Shown: positions 5,868 through 36,899 of the stretch, piece by piece
Position numbering within the stretch: position 1 is the first letter of the stretch
Layout of the letters: each line of letters starts with the position of its first letter
Origin: Bdellovibrionota bacterium
Lineage (GTDB): Bacteria > Bdellovibrionota > UBA1018 > CAUJDS01
DNA length: 51,721 nt
Assembly (NCBI GenBank): GCA_963169695.1
Contig: CAUJDS010000047.1
Location: 1-51,721, forward strand
Direction: 5' to 3'
The notes under the pieces: generated by a model
Databases searched by the model: none
Told to the model about the DNA's origin: nothing
The model's input: the letters and a program-made list of their open reading frames with translations, nothing else
Position numbers and translations under genes: made by a program

Positions 5868-7304
5868 ATGAGTAATCGTATGGAACCGAAGCCAACTATG
5901 ACTCCTGACGAAATCGAAGCTCACTTTACGCTCGACGAGCTTTTTGTATCCAGAACCGATGAACGTGGCGTAATCCAATCCGGCAATCCGGTTTTTGTTC
6001 GGGTCTCCGGCTATCCACTAGAAAAACTCCTAGGAAGCCCGCACAACATAATTCGGCATCCGGATATGCCAAAAACGGTATTCAAATTATTCTGGGACAC
6101 TCTCAAATCCGGGCAGCCGATTGTAGCCTATGTCAAAAATCGATCCATTGACGGCAAGCCTTACTGGGTACTAGCCTGTGCGTTTCCGATTGATGGTGGA
6201 TTTCTATCTATTCGTATCAAACCTACCTCATCCATCCTTGGACAAATTAAGTCTCTCTATTCTGAAATAGCCAAGGAAGAAAAAATAAAGGGCATTCCAG
6301 CGGCAGCAAAATTGCTAGAACAAAAGCTCGCTGAAATGGGATTCAATACCTACTTTGACTTTATGTCGCATGCGGCAGCCGCCGAAATCAAAGCCAGAGA
6401 TGAAGGCTTGGCAGCCAATCAAAAACAGGCCGCTCCCGAACAGAAATATGGAGAGACCCACTTCTTGGCCAAAGAATTCGATGAAATGAATCGAGTGTGC
6501 GTGGATCGAGCCAAAGACTTTCAAAGCCTTTTATTGAAGCTGGAAGAATACGCTGGAATCGATTCCTACATTGGCACCCGAATCAGTACCATAACTCAGG
6601 CAACTAATCGACTGGAAGCCTTGGCCGTTAATATGTCGATCAGTTCGCATCGATTGGGTTCTAAAGGGGCAACGCTTTCCGTGGTGGCAAGTACCTTCAA
6701 AACCGCAGCCAAAGAAGTCCTAAAGATTGTAGAAGACCTAAAAAAGCAGCTCAGTCCGGTAGTGGAAGAATTGCGACCGGTAAGATTAAATCTTATGATA
6801 TCTCGCCTTCAGAGTGAAATGCTTGCCTTCTTCACCAAGGAGATCAGAGATTTCTCCTCCAAGTACGCGGTAAGAGCAATCCCTCACCTTAAAGACATTC
6901 AAAACGATACGACAATCCTCATCGATCAAATTTCTATTTACTTCAAAAAAAATATTGAACAATTGGATCGAATTCTCGTCGTATTGGATGAAATGAGAGA
7001 TCGCCTTCTCAAGGGCAAAGCGGCCCTGCAGAGTTTAGACGTAATCCGCCTAGGGGGTAGGTTAGAGAGTGCGTTTGAAAAATCAACTGAAGAGGCCTTC
7101 GGTCCCTACGTCCAAGAAATGCTTCAGTTCGTGGACGTGATTGGCAAGCCCATCATGGAAGTCTTACTTCTCGTGGAAGGCTCCAAGAGGTTTTTCACCC
7201 TATCCAAAAATGAGATTCGTCGAAACCTCTCTGCCCTTCTCATTCTGGAATTGAGAAGAAATCGAATAGCCTACTTAGAGCCCAATAAAGAGGATGCCGC
7301 ATGA
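5868..7304 (+). CDS. Soluble PAS-domain sensor protein of chemosensory operon
   Basis: This is a 478-residue protein without membrane segments. Residues about 19-120 form an Aer-type PAS domain, with the tell-tale IIRHPDMPK at 61-69 and a conserved VSGYPLEKLLG just before it. In aerotaxis receptors this domain binds FAD or another small cofactor. The rest is predicted to be long helices (about 120-478), but it lacks the conserved methyl-accepting hairpin tip found in MCPs, so it is not a standard chemoreceptor. Its stop overlaps the start of cheA (ATGA), which argues for translational coupling and a shared function with CheA. It may feed redox or ligand information into the pathway. The function of the helical part is unknown. 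Confidence 0.8.
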   Translation: MSNRMEPKPTMTPDEIEAHFTLDELFVSRTDERGVIQSGNPVFVRVSGYPLEKLLGSPHNIIRHPDMPKTVFKLFWDTLKSGQPIVAYVKNRSIDGKPYWVLACAFPIDGGFLSIRIKPTSSILGQIKSLYSEIAKEEKIKGIPAAAKLLEQKLAEMGFNTYFDFMSHAAAAEIKARDEGLAANQKQAAPEQKYGETHFLAKEFDEMNRVCVDRAKDFQSLLLKLEEYAGIDSYIGTRISTITQATNRLEALAVNMSISSHRLGSKGATLSVVASTFKTAAKEVLKIVEDLKKQLSPVVEELRPVRLNLMISRLQSEMLAFFTKEIRDFSSKYAVRAIPHLKDIQNDTTILIDQISIYFKKNIEQLDRILVVLDEMRDRLLKGKAALQSLDVIRLGGRLESAFEKSTEEAFGPYVQEMLQFVDVIGKPIMEVLLLVEGSKRFFTLSKNEIRRNLSALLILELRRNRIAYLEPNKEDAA

Positions 7305-9043
7305 GCGAAGTAGATATTGAGCTCCTCAATTGCTTTATCGACGAATCCTCCGATCTCCTTATCAAATGGGAATCCATTTGTTTCGAGTTGGAAGAGGCCC
7401 CTACTGAAGACAACTGGAATAATCTCTTCCGAGTTGCTCATAACCTCAAAGGTACTTCTCGCTCGGTGGGGCTTGACGCCATAGGTGCCTTTGTTCATCG
7501 TGTTGAAGATGGAATCACTCTAGCCAAGCAGGGAAAAATATTCGTCAATAAAGAGTTCATTCAGGCGCTCCTCAAGGCCCAAAGCATACTTCAAACCTGG
7601 ACCCAAGATGTCAAAAAAGATCCTAGCGTTGTATTTGACCCAACACCCTTTCAACCTTATGAGGCCATATTAGTAACGGGAGGTACGGGCACTACAGAAG
7701 TCACTGCTATTCAGGCGACTGAGGTTAAGGTGGTGGAGGCTGTAGTAAAAGAGGCTCCAGTTCCCCAAGCTACCGCCCCGACGGTTGCCCAACCCAAGGA
7801 CAAGAAGGTCAAAGCAAATGGAGCGGCGTCACAAAGTACAATGGACGAGACCATTCGTGTCTCCGCCCGCAAGTTGGATCAATTTATTCAAATGGTAGGC
7901 GAGCTTTCCATTCAGCAAAATGTGCTCTCCCATCAGAATGCTTCTTCTCCAGCTACGGGAGATGCAGCCCAACAATCTCACTATCAATTGCGAAAGATCA
8001 CTCGAGACCTCTACGAAAAGGCACTATCGCTCCGAATGCAACCTGTACAACCGATCTTTCAGCGTCTCGAAAGAACCGTTAGAGATATTGCTTCAAGCAT
8101 AGGTAAAGAAGTAAAAGTAGAGGTCACCGGCGGAGAAGTGGAGTTGGATAAAACTGTATGTGAAAAAATCATTGAGCCACTCACCCATATGGTGCGTAAT
8201 TCGGTAGATCACGGACTTGAACCATCCGACATGCGCACTGCTGCCGGCAAGCCCACTGCTGGAACCGTTTCGATTCGCGCGATCCAGGAGTCTTCTTCGG
8301 TCTCACTCATTATTCAGGACGATGGGAGAGGATTGGATGAGGAGAAGATACTCAAAAAAGCCATGGAAAGAGGTTTAGTAAAGGACTCGAAGTCTCTTTC
8401 TCAATCCGAGATCTTTGCTCTCATTTTCTTGCCCGGCTTCTCTACGGCAGAGAAAGTTACTGATGTCTCTGGAAGAGGTGTTGGCATGGATGTAGTCATG
8501 CGCGCCATCGATGCGCTGAAGGGCCAAGTGAATATCGGCAGTGAAAAGGGCAAAGGCACTAAATTCTCAATTAAGCTTCCGACTTCTCTTAGCCTCATTG
8601 ATGCGCTCATAGTGAAACTCTCGGACCTCGACTACGCCGTTCCCTTAGATTCCATTGAAGAAGTTATAGATGTTGTAGAAGAAGCCGTTTCTTCAACGGT
8701 CGAAGGTGGAGAGGCTAAGCGAATGATTAGCCTTAGAAATCGCGTCGTCCCACTCCTACGGCTAGATAGCTATTTAAAGACACAAAGAAGCAAGGGGACC
8801 GCGACTTCGTGTAACAAGGCACTAATTGTGCGTCTTGGCAAAAATAGCGTCGCGCTTCAGGTTGATGAAATCGGAGAGCAGCAGCAGATCGTCGTTCGAC
8901 AGCTCGATGAGAAAATTGGCAATGTCCAAGGATTCTCTGGTGGAACAATCCTGGGTAGCGGTGACCCTGGCCTCATTGTTGATGTTGAAGGTATCGCCCG
9001 AAAATATTTCTTAATGTTCCATTCCAAGGAGGAAGCAGCGTGA
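7301..9043 (+). CDS. cheA: Chemotaxis histidine kinase CheA
   Basis: This is a 580-residue CheA. The Hpt (P1) domain is N-terminal with His47 in VAHNLKGTSRSVG. A Pro/Ala/Val-rich linker at about 115-180 replaces the usual CheY-binding P2 domain, which I do not see. The dimerisation domain begins near TIRVSARKLDQFIQMVGEL. The ATPase domain has the N box HMVRNSVDHGLE (296-307), G1 in DDGRGL (340-345) and G2 GRGVGM (391-396). A CheW-like P5 domain fills about 430-580. It autophosphorylates and passes phosphate to REC proteins such as the 5401 product and the REC part of the CheR-CheB fusion. It is coupled to its neighbours by ATGA and GTGA overlaps. Confidence 0.96.
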   Translation: MSEVDIELLNCFIDESSDLLIKWESICFELEEAPTEDNWNNLFRVAHNLKGTSRSVGLDAIGAFVHRVEDGITLAKQGKIFVNKEFIQALLKAQSILQTWTQDVKKDPSVVFDPTPFQPYEAILVTGGTGTTEVTAIQATEVKVVEAVVKEAPVPQATAPTVAQPKDKKVKANGAASQSTMDETIRVSARKLDQFIQMVGELSIQQNVLSHQNASSPATGDAAQQSHYQLRKITRDLYEKALSLRMQPVQPIFQRLERTVRDIASSIGKEVKVEVTGGEVELDKTVCEKIIEPLTHMVRNSVDHGLEPSDMRTAAGKPTAGTVSIRAIQESSSVSLIIQDDGRGLDEEKILKKAMERGLVKDSKSLSQSEIFALIFLPGFSTAEKVTDVSGRGVGMDVVMRAIDALKGQVNIGSEKGKGTKFSIKLPTSLSLIDALIVKLSDLDYAVPLDSIEEVIDVVEEAVSSTVEGGEAKRMISLRNRVVPLLRLDSYLKTQRSKGTATSCNKALIVRLGKNSVALQVDEIGEQQQIVVRQLDEKIGNVQGFSGGTILGSGDPGLIVDVEGIARKYFLMFHSKEEAA

Positions 9044-9501
9044 GCACAGAAACCAATGTAAACGATGATCGATATCTCATTTACAGAATAGGAGATGAGA
9101 CCTACGGTACGCCGCTATTGGATGTACGAGAAGTCGTTGAATACCAAAAGCCAAAGTTCATGCCGAATATGGAATCGTACTTTTCTGGCGTCATCAATAT
9201 CCGTGGATCTATTGTAGGCGTCGTGGATATGCGATTGCGATTTGGACAAACTTCCGCGGTGGCAAAAATGCCAGCTCTCTTGATTTGCGAATCCGATCGA
9301 GGCTCTATCGCTGCTGTAGTGGATCAAGTGGAGGCGGTTGTCTCTATTCCAGACACCGAAATCGAAAAGAAGCCTCCCGTGGTAGCGAAGGTAGAACAGG
9401 AGTACCTTCTCGGAGTCGCTAAGATTCAAGGACGTCTCATTACTCTTATCGATCTTAAGAGTTCATTGACCGAAATGAAGGTCATACAAAAAGCAGCTTA
9501 G
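9040..9501 (+). CDS. cheW: Chemotaxis adaptor CheW
   Basis: This is a 153-residue single CheW domain, beginning with the typical YLIYRIGDETYGTPLLDVREVV and containing YFSGVINIRGSIVGVVDMR, a hallmark of CheW. It docks MCPs to CheA in the signalling array at the inner membrane. It starts with GTG at 9040, overlapping the cheA stop. The AAGGAGG ribosome site in the last cheA codons supports this start. The length is normal for the family. Confidence 0.96.
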   Translation: MSTETNVNDDRYLIYRIGDETYGTPLLDVREVVEYQKPKFMPNMESYFSGVINIRGSIVGVVDMRLRFGQTSAVAKMPALLICESDRGSIAAVVDQVEAVVSIPDTEIEKKPPVVAKVEQEYLLGVAKIQGRLITLIDLKSSLTEMKVIQKAA

Positions 9502-9512
9502 GAAACGGAACC

Positions 9513-11570
9513 ATGAGAAATTTAAGTCTTTCTACTAAAATAACCCTACTTACATTGGTTGGTGCTGCGCTACTGAGCGGGATAAATGCCTTCAATTTTC
9601 AGAAAATAGACCAACGCTTGAGGAGCCAAATAACAGAGGAGTTGAATTCGTGGCGTGGAACACTTGCAAGTGCTATATCCGCCCAAGTATACGAGCGGTA
9701 CGGTGATGTTCAAGCCTTCGGATTAAATGAGGTGCTTTTGAGCGGCAATACCCAAAACATTACAAGCGCTCTCAATGCTTACATTGCCACTTATGGAATT
9801 TATGATCTGATCCTGGTGCTATCTCTCGACGGTTCACTCATCGCTGTCAATGATAGGGACCCCAAGGGAAACAAGATCGATGTCACTCCCCTTTACTCAA
9901 AGAATTTCTCCAGCGAACTCTGGCATCAAAAAGTCATAGAGGGCAAAACAATCGATGATGTCGAAAAAGGCTTTGCAGGAACTTATATCTCGGATCCTCA
10001 GAATCTAAAAATATTTAACTGGGTTTATAAAAAGGATGGTTGGCACAATGTGTTTAGTGCTGCGGTCAAAGACAAGGCTGGAAAGCCAGTCGCTGTTCTG
10101 GCAAATTTTGCAAACTTTAGGTGGGTGTACGATGAATTCAACACGTTTATGCGGACCCATTCTACCAATGGGGCAGCTAGCGCAAATTTTTCATTGGTAG
10201 GATCGGATGGTAGCATTCTTTGGGAAACCGCAACCTCCTCTTCGGCGAGCAACACGGGCATTTTAGACTTAAAGTCTCTTGAGAATACTAATCTCGTGGA
10301 AAAAGGCGTCGAGGCAGTGGCCTTATCTATAAGTGGTAAGGAGGGAATAGTCGAAGGAGAACATTTTCGTTCAGGTCAACGAGAAGTGATAAGCTATGGA
10401 AAGATTGTCGGTCCAAAATTTCCATCAGGAATGGAATGGAGTCTGCTGGTATCACGTCCGGTTTCAACTCTGTTGGGAAGTCTCGAGCGGGATGTTCGTC
10501 TTTTTTACCTATCTCTATTCTTCGGGTTGGCCCTGGTGGGTTTGGTATCTGTTCTATTTTCAAGAGCCATGGGTAGAAATCTTTCGACCTTTTCACGGCA
10601 ATTGGAAACGATACTGGACGAGTCCAAGAAGATGGGGCTATCTCTTACCCAGTCCTCAGGCGACCTCGCAGCCAGTAGTACGGAGCAGGCTTCTGCCATT
10701 CAAGAATCTGTTTCTGCGCTGAACGAAATGTCGAGTATGTTGAATCAGACCTCCGAGAATTCTAAGAAATCTCAAGAAACGGCGCGCGAGGTCTCTGAGA
10801 AGAGTAAATCAGGTACAGCTACGGTTAAAAAAATGGTTCACTCCATGAATTCCATTAGTGAAGCGAGCAAGAATCTGGAAGCCATTGCGCAAGCGATTCA
10901 TCAGATTAAGGACAAAACGAGTATGATCAATGCGATCGTCTTCAAAACCCAGCTTCTGTCCTTTAACGCATCTATTGAAGCTGCTCGAGCAGGACAGTAC
11001 GGAAAAGGATTCGCTGTCGTGGCTGAAGAGGTTGGAAACCTTGCCCAAATGAGTGGGGCTGCTTCAGGTGAGATCGAAACTCTCATTGGAAAAAGTCAGC
11101 AGCAAGTTGATGGTACATTGGAGTTAATTCAATCTCGTGTTCAGGATGGACAAACGGTATCAGCAGAGGTTGCAACTACCTTTGCAGAAATTGCAAGCTC
11201 CATCGAGGGCATCAGTGCTCAGATCACCTCCATTGCCGAAGCTAGCCATCAGCAAGACGTGGGTATTCAGCAAAGTCAGAAGGCCATGGAGCAATTGGAT
11301 ATCGCAGCGAGAAAGAACAGTGAAGCAGCTGCTTCCACCCAGACAGCATCCGTCAATCTTGGAAAACAGGATATAATTCTTGGAGGAATCGTTAGTAAGC
11401 TTAACGAGGTCGTCCTAGGGCAAGGCAGAGAGAAGCCCACCGAGAAATTCCGTAGATGGATTAGGTCCAAAGGCGCTGGCTCAAAAATGGCTGAGGTTAT
11501 CGAATTGCCTCTGCCCAAGAGTGGAGAATCGATCCACGCAGACGATGATTCCTTCAAGCATGTAGCGTAA
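9513..11570 (+). CDS. Methyl-accepting chemotaxis protein
   Basis: This is a 685-residue transmembrane chemoreceptor. The first membrane segment is at about residues 8-26. A large periplasmic ligand-binding region follows (about 30-328, probably Cache-like by length and pattern, not proven). The second membrane segment is at about 330-350. No clear HAMP domain follows. The cytoplasmic coiled coil has its conserved tip around residues 472-512, with the typical [20 protein letters not shown] followed by EEVGNLA. Gln/Glu pairs suitable for methylation occur in the helices, which fits the methylase/esterase encoded next. It is 11 bp downstream of cheW, and the start ATG follows GGAAACGG. It is the only membrane receptor in this operon. 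Confidence 0.95.
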
Positions 11571-11588
11571 CACGAGGAGTATTCTGTT

Positions 11589-13481
11589 ATGAGCTTTACG
11601 CCTAGTGAAGAAGAAGAAGTCTACGGACTTGTGGAGGAAATCACGGGCTCTTGCCAAAAAGGCAAATACCGTAGAGAAGTCTTGCTGACGAATATCCTAA
11701 GGCGAATGGAAGCCCATGACTCCAAGCGATTTGAGGACTACCTCAAATTAGCACGTGCCAATTCGGAAGAGTGGAAGGAATTTCTCTCGGCCATTACCAT
11801 CCATACGACTTCTTGGTTTAGGGAAATGCCTCACTACGAGCATATTCGTACTTGGATTGATACGCATGAAAGGGATTTCCTAACGGATCCTTTCTTGATT
11901 TGGTCCTCAGCTTGTTCAACCGGCGAAGAGCTCTACTCCATTGGGCTTGAGATGGAACGCTATCGACTTGAGAACCCAGGATTTGATTATAGGCTCTTGG
12001 GCACTGATATCGATCCCGTCTCAGTGGCAATCGGCAATAGAGCTATCTACAGCGCAAAGCACCTCAGCGCCGTACCCAATGCTTGCTTGCCAGGAGTCAT
12101 GGTGGGAAGCGGTAAGACAGATGGACTAATGACACTCGACAAAGAAATCCGTTGCCGCGCTTCCTTTAAAGTGTGGAATCTTAGCGACGGTACCTTTGAG
12201 CATACCAAAGCTAAATTTGATCTTATTTTCTGCAGAAATGTCCTGATTTACTTTAGCCCCGAGAAAGTGGCAACTATCGTGCGCAATTTAGCGGATGGCT
12301 TAAAAATGCAAGGGCTACTAGTTCTTGGACACAGCGAAGCCCTGGAAAAAGCGCCTACGGACTTTCTTTTCGTTGGCAATTCCATGTATGAAAAAGCTTC
12401 GCCCAGGAAGGCCCTATCAGAAACAGCAGGTACTCAGCAGAAAATTTTGGTCGTGGATGACTCAGTTTCAGTAAGGAAAGTTTTGTCCAAACTCTTTTTG
12501 AAAAACGGATTTGAAGTGGTCGAAGCATCAAATCCATTAGAAGCTACTCAAGCCACACAAAAGTATAGAATCAGTGCCGTTACGTTAGACCTCAATATGG
12601 GAAGACCAACGGATGGATCAGAATGGTTAAAAGAAGCCAGGGCAAGAGGATTCAAAGAACCGGTGGTGGTCATTACTGATGCGCGTGTTGAAGATGCCCA
12701 TCATGTATTAGGAACTTTGGAGTCGGGAGCGCAGGATTACGTGGTGAAGAGTGTATTGGCCAATCATCCGGATGATGTGGTGGCAAGGATGCGAGATCTG
12801 ATTGTATCGCATACGCAGCACCAGTATGCGGGACCATCGAACGGCAATTTTCTGCATGAATTCGAAATGGTTCGGCCAGAGGTCTTCGTTCTAGGAGCAA
12901 GTACAGGTGGCCCAGAAGCTTTGGCGCAGATTTTGCGTGATTTTTCGAAAATACCGGTTGAGTTCATTCCTCCTGTTGTCGTTGTTCAACACATTAGTCC
13001 AGAGTTTGCACCAGCTTTAGCGCAGCGGATGGAGTCGGTATCGGGATTGAAGCTTGCTACTGGTTCGACAGGAGAGGTGCTCGTACCGGGCAAGCTCTAT
13101 ATGAGTCAGTCCGATGCCCATATCGGGCTTCGACGTGAGGGAGGACGTCTTGCCTCGTTCTTTACGCAAGAGGGCAAGATAAATGGGCATCGACCAGCAG
13201 TGGACTTTCTATTTCGAACGACTGCTGACACCAGTGCTAGGACGATGGCTGTTCTGCTGACGGGTATGGGACGTGACGGTGCGGCGGGCATGCTTGATCT
13301 CCTAAAGAAAGGCCGGTCCATCAACCTCGCACAGAATGAAGCCAGTAGCGTCGTCTATGGCATGCCCAAGGAAGCCGTAACGCTCAATGCAGTACACTTT
13401 ACAGGCAACATCAAACAGCTACGAGCCATGATGGAGCGATCTATCAAAATGAAGGAATTGGCAGGAAAGAAGGCTGCTTAG
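11589..13481 (+). CDS. CheR-REC-CheB fusion: receptor methyltransferase and methylesterase in one chain
   Basis: This is a 630-residue fusion. Residues about 1-270 are a CheR methyltransferase with the SAM-binding WSSACSTGEELYS (105-117) and FCRNVLIYF (214-222). Residues about 285-405 are a REC domain with Asp290/Asp291, phospho-acceptor Asp334 in LDLNM, Thr363 and Lys387. Residues about 430-620 are a CheB methylesterase with its catalytic triad: Ser438 in GASTGG, His468 in VQHIS and Asp563 in GMGRDG. Every catalytic residue is present. The protein should therefore both add and remove receptor methyl groups, with the REC domain as the switch. The REC-CheB part has the order of normal CheB, so the fusion is simply cheR joined in frame to cheB. 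No separate cheR or cheB is seen in the window. Confidence 0.95.
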   Translation: MSFTPSEEEEVYGLVEEITGSCQKGKYRREVLLTNILRRMEAHDSKRFEDYLKLARANSEEWKEFLSAITIHTTSWFREMPHYEHIRTWIDTHERDFLTDPFLIWSSACSTGEELYSIGLEMERYRLENPGFDYRLLGTDIDPVSVAIGNRAIYSAKHLSAVPNACLPGVMVGSGKTDGLMTLDKEIRCRASFKVWNLSDGTFEHTKAKFDLIFCRNVLIYFSPEKVATIVRNLADGLKMQGLLVLGHSEALEKAPTDFLFVGNSMYEKASPRKALSETAGTQQKILVVDDSVSVRKVLSKLFLKNGFEVVEASNPLEATQATQKYRISAVTLDLNMGRPTDGSEWLKEARARGFKEPVVVITDARVEDAHHVLGTLESGAQDYVVKSVLANHPDDVVARMRDLIVSHTQHQYAGPSNGNFLHEFEMVRPEVFVLGASTGGPEALAQILRDFSKIPVEFIPPVVVVQHISPEFAPALAQRMESVSGLKLATGSTGEVLVPGKLYMSQSDAHIGLRREGGRLASFFTQEGKINGHRPAVDFLFRTTADTSARTMAVLLTGMGRDGAAGMLDLLKKGRSINLAQNEASSVVYGMPKEAVTLNAVHFTGNIKQLRAMMERSIKMKELAGKKAA

Positions 13482-33122: not shown

Positions 33123-33569
33123 CTAAGGTATGCTGATCGTTCCGTTGATGGTGGGATTGTACTGGTCTTGATAAGACCAGGTTGTGCTCGATTGACTGAT
33201 CACAATAGGATAGGCCCAAGCGCGATGTTTGGATTCAGGCACTTGTACAAAGCTAGGGGAGAAGGACTGCGGGTTATTGCTTGATACCACTTGGTGGTAA
33301 GTCGCATTACCCATCAAATAGAACCACACGGTCTTACCGTTAGAAACTTGACAGTCCAAAGCGGTAGGAGGGGTTTGCTTTGTACCGTTCTGTCCGCTTC
33401 CTTCGCATCCACAGTAGTTTTCAGCATAGCCATCCCAAATCAAGATCGCTGCCGTTTGACTATCGCAGTGGACCAACTCGCTAGAACTCTTTGGAGCTTC
33501 CGTATTTCCGCACGCGGTGATGAAAGCGAGTCCGCACAGGATCCCTAGCTTTGCTGCGCGCCTAATCAC
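33123..33569 (-). CDS. Lipoprotein, unknown function
   Basis: This is a 148-residue protein starting with GTG at 33569. The N-terminal signal ends in a lipobox FITAC, so Cys20 should be lipidated. The mature part has several cysteines, including a CGC pair, a Thr/Ser-rich sequence and beta-strand pattern. I do not recognise the family. Its start overlaps the end of the upstream lipoprotein gene by 8 bp, so the two form an operon and may form a complex on the cell surface or at the outer membrane. Confidence 0.75.
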   Translation of the reverse strand: MIRRAAKLGILCGLAFITACGNTEAPKSSSELVHCDSQTAAILIWDGYAENYCGCEGSGQNGTKQTPPTALDCQVSNGKTVWFYLMGNATYHQVVSSNNPQSFSPSFVQVPESKHRAWAYPIVISQSSTTWSYQDQYNPTINGTISIP

Positions 33570-34164
33570 AACCCACTCGAATCATAAAATCCTTCAGGGC
33601 CTTGGTCCCACTGCTATCTGGCACATTACTCCATACGCCCGCGGCTTTTTCCATCGCCAGTCCGCTCGTATAAGTGTTGGTGGAGTTTCCCAACCACCGA
33701 ACATACTTGGTAGCATTGGCGCTGTATCCACCTTCCACAATCACCCAATAAGTGGTGCTAGCGGAGAGAGACAATGACGAATCAAAGGTGACCTTCTGAT
33801 AGGCGGAGCTAGTCCCGATATTATTGAGGTCGGTTGCGCTAAGTGACTCAATGCTAGATAGCGTCGTGCCCGGACTTGTAGACCCAGAGTCGGAGGCCAA
33901 GTAGATCTTCAGCGTGTCGCCGCCCGTGGTTGTATCGAAGGTCCCCGTCTTGGCCAGGTAAACCGACACATTGCTGACGGTGGAATCACTTGAGAGATAG
34001 AAGGACTGCGCGTAGTCCAGGCTGCTGGCATTACGTACTTCTCTCTCCGCGCCATCCGTATCCGTGCCTAGGTTGACGAGGCAGCTTGACGAGGAAGTTG
34101 TGCCACATCCCATCATCGTGGCCAAAAAAGAGAGAATGGGCAGCACCAGTGTTCCAAAAACCAT
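33562..34164 (-). CDS. Lipoprotein with choice-of-anchor-R-like beta domain
   Basis: This is a 200-residue protein with a signal ending in a lipobox around ATMMGC (Cys20), followed by a Ser-rich tether. The mature domain, with AQSFYLSSDSTVSNVSVYLA and SASTTYWVIVEGG, resembles the beta-sandwich named choice-of-anchor R, found in many secreted bacterial proteins. It has no enzymatic motif. It is the first gene of a two-lipoprotein operon. A 20-bp sequence shared with the AAA+ gene's upstream region lies 60-80 bases before its ATG. Confidence 0.78.
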   Translation of the reverse strand: MVFGTLVLPILSFLATMMGCGTTSSSSCLVNLGTDTDGAEREVRNASSLDYAQSFYLSSDSTVSNVSVYLAKTGTFDTTTGGDTLKIYLASDSGSTSPGTTLSSIESLSATDLNNIGTSSAYQKVTFDSSLSLSASTTYWVIVEGGYSANATKYVRWLGNSTNTYTSGLAMEKAAGVWSNVPDSSGTKALKDFMIRVGCD

Positions 34165-34224: not shown

Positions 34225-34244
34225 TTGTGGGACGGACCGCGTTA
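34225..34244. repeat. 20-bp repeat copy upstream of the lipoprotein operon
   Basis: The sequence TTGTGGGACGGACCGCGTTA is identical to 36880-36899. Similarity is weaker but continues on one side (AGGTACG about 13 bases away in both). It lies between the stop of the AAA+ gene and the start of the lipoprotein operon. Confidence 0.85.
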
Positions 34245-34275: not shown

Positions 34276-36786
34276 CTAAAAATCCTTAGGTAGTGGAACA
34301 TCCAGTGGTGCGCGCTCGCCCCTGAAACGAAGGTGTCTGCGAGGATCCACGCTTCGGCAAAGGAGGCGAAGGTAGCCCGAAAGCTTTGGTGGAATTCCAA
34401 ATCCTTGAAGGAAGCCTGGCCGAAGGAGTAGGTCCATCTGTGTCGCGACAGAATGCCTGACGATACTGGGCCTATTGCTTTGAATTGCTGCATAGGCCTC
34501 GCGCATGGACTTGGAAGAACCAAAGGGGCCGTGAGCTTGAAAAAGTCTTTTAATCGTGGCCGCAGGGACTTCCCGATTCGCTTCGAGTTCTTTCACGAGT
34601 TCTGCAGCGAGTTGACGGTGACGTGCAAGGATCTCTTGAGCTTTGTCCAATGCAACTTTATAAATATTCTCTGATGGGATAGTTGCATTGGCCAAAAGGT
34701 CAAACAAGAATCCTCCCCGACCTTTTCCTTTGGTAACGACTGACCACTGTTCGGAGACAGATTTTCCAGAAAGTTTGGCCTGTCTTTCAATAAGCGCTCG
34801 AATCTTCTCGATTTGGCTTATGGCCTGATTCCTTGCAGCGGCCGCCTGGGAAGACAACTCCGTTGACGGTGAGAATTCTAATTCTGCCGCTATACCACCC
34901 AAATCAGCCAAGATGCTATTGCGTAGGATATGAAATTCGTTGTGATCAGGCAGTTTCCAGAGTTTCGTCGTGCTCCCAGTAAGCTCAAGCCTTTCTGGTA
35001 CAGAACCATAGGCCAGCGTGCCGAGGATTCCCTTACCTGCCTCATGAATGGACTTTCGTCTTATTGTTTGCTGCGCGTTCAGCACAGCATCTTCACCTTG
35101 ATTGCTCAGCTGAGCCGCGCGAGTCAAGCGAGTTGTGGAAAGAGGAAGTTTCATTTCAACATGCTTGTTAGTGTCATTGATGACTGCAAGTTGGCCTTCA
35201 ATGATACCAACCTTAAACTGACGCCTTTCTCCTTCAGGTAGATCATTGAGCATCCTTACCATTTGCGGCATGGCTGGACCGATGGTTTCGGCAGTAGTAT
35301 CAATAAGAGGACGCGCTCCCTTAAGTGGATCAACTCCTAGTTCATAAATGTACTTGATCAAAGAAGGTTCGGCTTCGAGGGTGATGGAAGACCCTGGTTT
35401 GGTAGCATGCCTCAGCTGGTCTAATCGACTGTTTACAATATTGCCTGTAATTTTTAGCCATTCCTCTGAAGAAGCAGGAAGGATGTACTCAACATCTCCC
35501 CAACGAGAAAGGAAAGCTTCTGGATTGGAGGGCTCTCCAAAAATGCCATAGATAAAGTCCTTAAAAATTTCACCCTTACTTCTTTTTACAAGACCCTCAT
35601 AAGCTTGCCGGACTTCGTCGGGGTCGTGAATGTTGTGAACTGAATCGGTAACTTTTTTCATTAATACCGGATCGTTCGATGCAAAGATAATGATGCCACG
35701 TTTGAAGTTGGTCGTCCCGTCTACTCGATATTTACGGAGGCGGTCTTCAAATTCGGAAAATGCATTTGGATTCGTCGCTAAATCTAGCAAAAAAAATTCG
35801 AGATTACTCAGATGCCGTTCAAGAACCTTATCTCCAGTACTGGCATAGCTATCAAAGAGTCCCGGATATTGCTTCTCGAAGAAGCCATATGCGTTTGCTA
35901 AATACGCTCGATTCGTTGCTTGACTTCGAGAATCTGGCACTGTGTCGAAGTACTTTCGAATACGTTCGGCTTTTTGATCAGCACTTAGTGCTTTGTCATT
36001 TTGAATATTATTGATGGTTTCTCTTGCATCAATAAAAGTCCTAGCAGCACTTGATAGTTCTTGGTCGCGAGGTGCCGAGTTCCCTGATGGACTTATTTTC
36101 AGTTCACCCGATCCCGCCACACTCCAAAGTGCAGCCAGAAAGTCTTCCGTACCGCTGACGGGACGTCTGTAATAGTTATTTGTGAGTATGCTCTCAGCCA
36201 AACGACTGCGAGAGCCTTCGTCTTCCACGGACTTCAATAGCGCCGACTGTAACTCCTCATGAGTTGTGCCAGTGACATTTTGTCTATTGTGAATTGGCAA
36301 GTGTCGCTTCTCTTTAGCAATCGTGCCGAGTGGCGTCTCCAAATTGTAGAGCTCATCGTAAACAATAATTCCCTGCACTCCTCTTTTCTCATTGGCTCCC
36401 GTCTGAATAAGTCGCTTAAGACTTGAAGCACTAATCACTTGAGTCCCTTCTGCAAGAGTTTCCTCTACAAATCTCCCACCTAAGCCTAGGTCATTGACGA
36501 GCTCCCTCACCATTTGGGTTTTGCCGATGGCAGGGGGTCCAATCATTACGATGGGTGAATTGATGCCTTCTAATGCTTCAGGCAGAAACTCAGCAAGATA
36601 GATGCGATTGCAGATTTTATCGACAACGCCAGCCAGTGCCGGGTATTTCTTTTTGAGCTTCTCGCGGGAGACTTCAATAACTTTGGCCCGTTCAGGAGTG
36701 GGGGCATGGGTATTGGCCTGCAAATGGCGCGACGCACTAGTGCTCACAATCAAAAAGACAATACCTATCAGTCCGAATCTCATCAT
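34276..36786 (-). CDS. Exported or membrane-anchored AAA+ protein with Clp-like ATPase and inactive M41-like tail
   Basis: This is about 836 residues from the ATG at 36786. A TTG three codons earlier follows a G-rich stretch and may be the true start, while a frame reaching 36936 is unlikely. Residues about 3-25 are a hydrophobic signal peptide or anchor (FGLIGIVFLIVSTSAS). The AAA+ core has Walker A GPPAIGKT (83-90), Walker B IIVYDE (Asp144/Glu145) and a sensor-1 Asn in IIIFASNDP. GVDPLKGARPLI near 484-495 matches the small domain of Clp/Hsp100 ATPases. Then comes a part like the FtsH peptidase (M41): HEAGK at 581-585 in place of HEAGH, and LGGIAAELEF at 629-638 like LGGRAAEE. The second zinc His is Lys and no third ligand is seen, so it is probably proteolytically dead. 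An AAA+ protein facing the periplasm would lack ATP unless delivered elsewhere. Confidence 0.75.
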   Translation of the reverse strand: MMRFGLIGIVFLIVSTSASRHLQANTHAPTPERAKVIEVSREKLKKKYPALAGVVDKICNRIYLAEFLPEALEGINSPIVMIGPPAIGKTQMVRELVNDLGLGGRFVEETLAEGTQVISASSLKRLIQTGANEKRGVQGIIVYDELYNLETPLGTIAKEKRHLPIHNRQNVTGTTHEELQSALLKSVEDEGSRSRLAESILTNNYYRRPVSGTEDFLAALWSVAGSGELKISPSGNSAPRDQELSSAARTFIDARETINNIQNDKALSADQKAERIRKYFDTVPDSRSQATNRAYLANAYGFFEKQYPGLFDSYASTGDKVLERHLSNLEFFLLDLATNPNAFSEFEDRLRKYRVDGTTNFKRGIIIFASNDPVLMKKVTDSVHNIHDPDEVRQAYEGLVKRSKGEIFKDFIYGIFGEPSNPEAFLSRWGDVEYILPASSEEWLKITGNIVNSRLDQLRHATKPGSSITLEAEPSLIKYIYELGVDPLKGARPLIDTTAETIGPAMPQMVRMLNDLPEGERRQFKVGIIEGQLAVINDTNKHVEMKLPLSTTRLTRAAQLSNQGEDAVLNAQQTIRRKSIHEAGKGILGTLAYGSVPERLELTGSTTKLWKLPDHNEFHILRNSILADLGGIAAELEFSPSTELSSQAAAARNQAISQIEKIRALIERQAKLSGKSVSEQWSVVTKGKGRGGFLFDLLANATIPSENIYKVALDKAQEILARHRQLAAELVKELEANREVPAATIKRLFQAHGPFGSSKSMREAYAAIQSNRPSIVRHSVATQMDLLLRPGFLQGFGIPPKLSGYLRLLCRSVDPRRHLRFRGERAPLDVPLPKDF

Positions 36787-36879
36787 TTTGTTCAAAGTCA
36801 CCACCCCGCCTACACAGAGTAACTTTTCCCGCCGCTTCTTGGAAGAGGTAGAAGAGGTACGGAAAAGGTACGGAACTAG

Positions 36880-36899
36880 TTGTGGGACGGACCGCGTTA
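36880..36899. repeat. 20-bp repeat copy upstream of the AAA+ gene
   Basis: This is the second copy of the 34225-34244 sequence, in the same orientation and 2655 bp away. It lies 94-113 bases upstream of the AAA+ start. Next to it, 36844-36875 is a short imperfect tandem repeat of AGAGGTA/AAGGTACGGA units. The pair could be shared promoter or operator elements, or ends of a moved segment. Confidence 0.85.

Follow-up and report, generated by a model that had tools for sequence, protein, structure and literature searches.

What could an AAA+ ATPase with a peptidase domain do outside the bacterial cytoplasm? AAA+ machines are regarded as cytosolic or organellar, because of their need for ATP. The question is raised by one minus-strand gene of the window, the stretch of 51,721 nucleotides of Bdellovibrionota DNA that we analysed. 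Its predicted product combines a Clp-type ATPase, a degenerate M41 (FtsH peptidase)-like domain and an N-terminal export signal. A branch of bacterial proteins that are exported, have a strictly conserved ATPase site and have lost the peptidase makes an AAA+ motor outside the bacterial cytoplasm directly testable, along with the question of whose ATP it would use. An earlier note on this DNA had called the domain combination an undescribed family. This agrees with our searches, as the open full-text literature described neither a Clp-type AAA+ fusion with M41 nor its exported forms nor the phage family reported below, and NCBIfam holds no family for a Clp-type AAA+ plus M41 combination.

Domain architecture

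The gene spans 34276..36786 on the minus strand and encodes 836 amino acids. An ORF check found the coordinates to be exact, with the ATG at 36786 and the stop at 34276. All parts of the gene given below lie on the same strand. The ATPase module contains Walker A (GPPAIGKT, residues 83-90, 36517..36540), Walker B (GIIVYDE, residues 139-145, 36352..36372), sensor 1 (IIFASND with N371, 35671..35691) and an arginine-finger region (FLSRWGD with R428, 35494..35514). Walker B and sensor 1 are separated by an enlarged insert of 225 residues (35692..36351), predicted with low confidence to be mostly helical. Next, a Clp/ClpB D2 small domain covers residues 449-508 (35263..35442) and includes sensor 2, R492, in DPLKGARPL (486-494). 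The arginine finger is an addition to the motifs of the earlier note; those it had listed (Walker A and B, the sensor-1 Asn, DPLKGARPL, HEAGK and LGGIAAELEF) are all present.

In terms of Pfam, the AAA model matches residues 80-191 at 23.3 bits (cut-off 21.2) and ClpB_D2-small matches residues 449-508 at 27.4 bits (cut-off 21.9). A PDB sequence search also returned ClpB. Structure prediction and structural search, which the same note had proposed as a check, gave ClpB (NBD2) as the best match, a weak one; the AlphaFold model, with a mean pLDDT of 51.5 from a five-row alignment, decides nothing alone.

The M41-like domain covers residues 574-751 (34534..35067), as located by hhalign and a family HMM. 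Its zinc motif is broken, reading HEAGK (residues 581-585, 35032..35046) where active relatives have HExxH. The alignment shows no Asp at the position of the third zinc ligand, and LGGIAAELEF follows at residues 629-638. Pfam Peptidase_M41 does not match this protein on its own, and the domain is assigned because the profiles of its relatives do match. An HMM built from 35 zinc-intact relatives only recognises it with 96 bits (E=1e-25, Z=1e6), over residues 31-758 and in two pieces, the AAA+ module (31-151) and the small domain with M41 (427-758, iE 9e-13). Furthermore, hhalign aligns a profile of exported members with the FtsH M41 domain at E=1e-7, with the HEAGK and HExxH columns in register. 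The profiles thus support M41 homology for residues 560-750, where the earlier note had looked for it. Its reading of the protein as a fusion of a Clp-type AAA+ module with a catalytically inactive M41-like domain, carrying an export signal, is upheld. We are highly confident of the predicted architecture, the family and the dead peptidase.

As in FtsH, the M41 fold is C-terminal to an AAA+ module. Unlike FtsH, the AAA+ module and small domain of the family are of the Clp/HSP100 type, and the window protein lacks both HExxH and the third zinc ligand and has one N-terminal hydrophobic segment instead of a transmembrane pair with a periplasmic domain. In the relatives, the NCBIfam FtsH models recognise just the C-terminal peptidase part, and none matches the window protein. 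With the second ATPase domain of ClpB, ClpA and ClpC (HSP100) it shares the AAA+ core, the arginine finger, the D2 small domain and the sensor-2 GARPL. It differs from these in being a predicted exported, single AAA+ ring without Clp N-domain, with a fused M41 domain and a large insert between Walker B and sensor 1.

Relatives in Bdellovibrionota and jumbo phages

As a single query, the window protein found no relative in genome contigs, viral contigs or phages, and none was found in its own class (58 genomes). Two own-class matches (E 1e-3 to 1e-2) were rejected, one being a Clp ATPase-like AAA+ ORF and the other an unrelated surface-protein-like ORF. Further weak own-class matches, restricted to the AAA region, were also rejected. 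Across the phylum (369 genomes) the search revealed true homologues that align over both AAA+ and M41. Matches to M41 only were read as FtsH by their length and position, and were kept out of the member count.

The homologues fall into two groups. The first is soluble and comes from five Bdellovibrionota genomes: G226, Bdellovibrio sp. 28-41-41 (G246), MAG KLAP46 (G270), Bdellovibrionales ACE_BDE2 (G303) and, as a partial sequence, G268. These proteins have no signal peptide and an intact HEAGH, and Pfam Peptidase_M41 matches those of G270 (1.6e-22) and G303 (2.2e-24). The AlphaFold model of the G270 protein (pLDDT 60) has FtsH as its first match (E 3e-9), with ClpC lower down, and its M41 part superposes on 2di4, the solved FtsH protease domain, with a TM of 0.75. 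Structures of Ycf2-FtsHi, the chloroplast import motor, are among its best Foldseek matches.

The second group consists of eight exported members: the window protein, one each in G275 and Bdellovibrionaceae Jr-03apr18-63 (G306), two in G116 and three in G117. A signal-like segment is present at every N-terminus seen, and the zinc site is broken. The seven relatives reach about 1,400 amino acids and some carry a WD40 propeller. Zinc-site variants of the group are HEAGK, HQAGH, RVAGT, HQVGY, HKAGS, QQASY, NLLGH and ILAGY, the alignment of the last being less certain. The G275 protein has kept its metal ligands and lost the catalytic Glu; it is exported and still passes Pfam M41 (34.1 bits, cut-off 29.9), which ties the whole group to M41. 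Overall, 35/35 phage and soluble bacterial members have a complete zinc triad with catalytic Glu, compared with 0/8 exported ones.

Pairwise identity among exported members is only around 20-30%. Even so, five ATPase features persist at every site that could be read: the Lys of Walker A, the Glu of Walker B, the sensor-1 Asn, the arginine finger and the sensor-2 Arg. Departures from the usual residues were found in Walker A GKN (G117c), in Walker B YEE of one G116 protein, with Glu for Asp, and in AKT (G117b). Between Walker B and sensor 1, the exported branch has an insert of 213-356 residues, with G306 left out; in four soluble bacterial members this insert measures 124-132 residues, and the phage median is 149.

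Genomes G116 and G117 belong to one genus, with 2-3 divergent copies per genome. Here, exported AAA+/M41-like proteins carry an N-terminal WD40 beta-propeller (L056:3788-7870 and L081:871-2871). One G116 member is split at contig ends into an N-terminal piece with signal and WD40 (L081) and a C-terminal piece (L016). The shared peptide YKDVLKIYED indicates that the two are probably parts of a single gene. In the same genus, a gene for an exported transglutaminase-elicitor (PF16683) homologue (L014:7157-8560) adjoins an exported AAA+/M41-like gene, and in G117 an ankyrin-repeat protein of 652 aa (L057:3414-5369) is encoded near another. A TLC-type gene (ATP/ADP translocase family) occurs only in this genus and in the neighbouring genome G118, and was undetected in the window genome, G275 and G306. 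The translocase was therefore rejected as a general companion of the family.

Searched with the soluble group, IMG/VR yielded full-length homologues, and the largest of their contigs measures 548 kb. In total, 30 non-redundant jumbo-phage contigs (L086, L090, L093-L134) encode a soluble Clp-type AAA+ module with M41, and HExxH with the downstream Asp is present in 30/30 phage proteins and 5/5 proteins of the soluble bacterial group. The phage scan used the patterns AVHEAGH or IF[VIC][SV]GN[LI]D. An exact AVHEAGH is missing from 17/30 phage members, almost all of which can only have been picked up by the second pattern, so that selection bias is limited. No signal peptide was seen in phage members, with the exception of L122, whose start is ambiguous and has a hydrophobic upstream extension. 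Some members adjoin genes for phage DNA polymerase, major head protein, clamp loader or nicotinamide phosphoribosyltransferase. Named phage records yielded no full-length member, only M41/FtsH matches over at most one third of the protein.

The window protein is therefore no lone oddity, as it had first appeared, since jumbo phages and a few Bdellovibrionota encode the same combination in soluble form with the zinc site intact. The search also brought to light an apparently undescribed family of putative soluble ATP-dependent proteases of jumbo phages, which may act in host takeover.

Export and its origins

Hydropathy and a start-codon check place a signal peptide or N-terminal anchor at residues 1-24 (MMRFGLIGIVFLIVSTSASRHLQA, 36715..36786). 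This is the sole transmembrane-like stretch by hydropathy, and TSA|SR and SAS|RH are candidate cleavage sites. The only downstream in-frame start that removes the whole hydrophobic segment is a TTG at codon 22, with no evident Shine-Dalgarno sequence. An upstream TTG at 36795, 5 nt past GGGGTGG, would prepend MNK and retain the segment, and would strengthen the signal peptide.

Every complete member that is exported and zinc-dead has a signal-like N-terminus, and no complete soluble bacterial member does. Translation from beyond the hydrophobic segment is unlikely, both because of the poor context of the codon-22 TTG and because every complete exported relative begins in this way. The misplaced start that the earlier note had considered as a cause of an apparent ATPase outside the cell loses ground for the same reason: with such relatives at hand, the arrangement is a recurring, conserved feature in need of explanation and not a likely annotation error. 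Judged on sequence features, export of the window protein is very probable.

The same segment could also act as a reverse anchor (N-out, C-in), leaving the ATPase in the cytoplasm of what would be a single-TM, FtsH-like pseudo-protease chaperone at the inner membrane. This would solve the ATP problem, and in the window protein a single Arg precedes the segment. However, the other complete exported members have a net charge of +3 or +4 there and Sec-like c-regions, e.g. PAHA|IW and AFAS|ND. The upstream TTG would give the window protein an extra Lys ahead of the segment, and FtsH itself has two segments. We consider a reverse anchor improbable.

A decaying or misannotated gene, that is, a degenerate copy of the soluble protease with a hydrophobic N-terminus by chance, is very improbable. 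The window protein stands alone in its own class and sits on a long branch, as such a copy might, but its 836 codons are open, its ATPase motifs are intact, and seven more exported homologues have both the signal and a broken zinc site.

As for the history of the exported proteins, G306 joins the soluble bacterial members in the tree (UFBoot 100), in a clade that in turn groups with the phage members L086, L090 and L134 (95-98). The remaining exported members form a separate long branch. In topology tests that involve long branches, a single-matrix model (as does the tree) and a fast constrained search, forcing all exported members together was rejected (AU p=0.0046), and forcing all Bdellovibrionota members together was not (p=0.145). 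Since G306 falls outside the other exported members, export and peptidase loss would have arisen at least twice, and two origins are probable. The dead peptidase appears as a derived state of the exported branch, to which the window protein, with its broken zinc site and predicted signal peptide, can be assigned.

Possible role and gene surroundings

We propose that the window protein is an exported pseudo-protease, derived from a soluble ATP-dependent protease with a Clp-type ATPase and an M41 zinc peptidase. FtsH M41 domains form the peptidase ring of the hexamer, and the dead domain would serve oligomer assembly or substrate docking. The ATPase would remodel target proteins without cutting them, as in FtsHi pseudo-proteases. 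Like the window protein, the latter retain the ATPase and have lost HEXXH (PMC8197885). They differ in having a classic FtsH AAA domain, in being FtsH-derived and in residing in an ATP-containing organelle, and the likeness need not mean common origin. Torsins and human mitochondrial CLPB/Skd3 are also Clp-like AAA+ proteins outside the cytosol, in ATP-supplied eukaryotic compartments; unlike the window protein, they have no M41 domain.

ATP is unexpected in a free-living periplasm. One answer would be an exported, ATP-independent scaffold or binding protein of the periplasm or surface, whose ATPase residues are a relic or bind nucleotide statically. Two members with atypical Walker residues fit this, and so does the pore loop: no canonical aromatic-hydrophobic-Gly motif is evident in the window protein, where the alignment is uncertain, and this would count against classical threading. 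However, at 20-30% identity all five catalytic positions of the ATPase survive wherever they can be seen, while the zinc ligands decay in the same proteins, and a relic should lose both. This pattern suggests selection for ATP use, and a scaffold seems rather unlikely.

A remodeller would instead need ATP beyond the cell that makes it, and the simplest place for it to act would be within a prey or host cell or up against one. Bdellovibrionota is a phylum of predators and parasites and, with no periplasmic ATP expected, the simplest supply would be that of prey or host. The chances look evenly balanced that the protein is a secreted or periplasm-facing AAA+ pseudo-protease, an ATP-driven remodeller working where such ATP is available, and ATP-driven action in the prey or host falls a little short of that. 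The context in G116/G117, with divergent copies, WD40 fusions, the ankyrin protein, the transglutaminase-elicitor homologue and TLC genes, appears effector-like. As no TLC gene was detected in the window genome, foreign-ATP use in this organism is something we infer. A wider scenario, in which Bdellovibrionota took up a soluble Clp-M41 protease that they share with jumbo phages, disabled its peptidase and at least twice made of it an exported AAA+ effector, remodelling proteins within prey or host and running on the victim's ATP, is tentative and somewhat doubtful.

Around the gene, an exact 20-bp direct repeat occurs just twice in the genome, both times upstream of a minus-strand gene whose predicted product is exported. 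Copy 2 (36880..36899, plus strand) is 94 bp upstream of the start codon of the window gene, and copy 1 (34225..34244, plus strand) precedes the next gene on the minus strand by 61 bp. An insertion was rejected in favour of a shared promoter element, given these positions and a similarity that seemingly extends beyond the repeat; a shared promoter or operator element is possible. The gene behind copy 1 (33562..34164, minus strand) has a lipoprotein-like signal and a weak DUF4082 match, and is possibly co-regulated with the window gene.

Lastly, two predicted lipoprotein genes lie directly downstream of the window gene (33123-34164, minus strand), and a chemotaxis-type cluster is found at 5868-13481 on the plus strand, with a PAS protein, a CheA-like kinase, an MCP and a single-chain CheR-receiver-CheB fusion.
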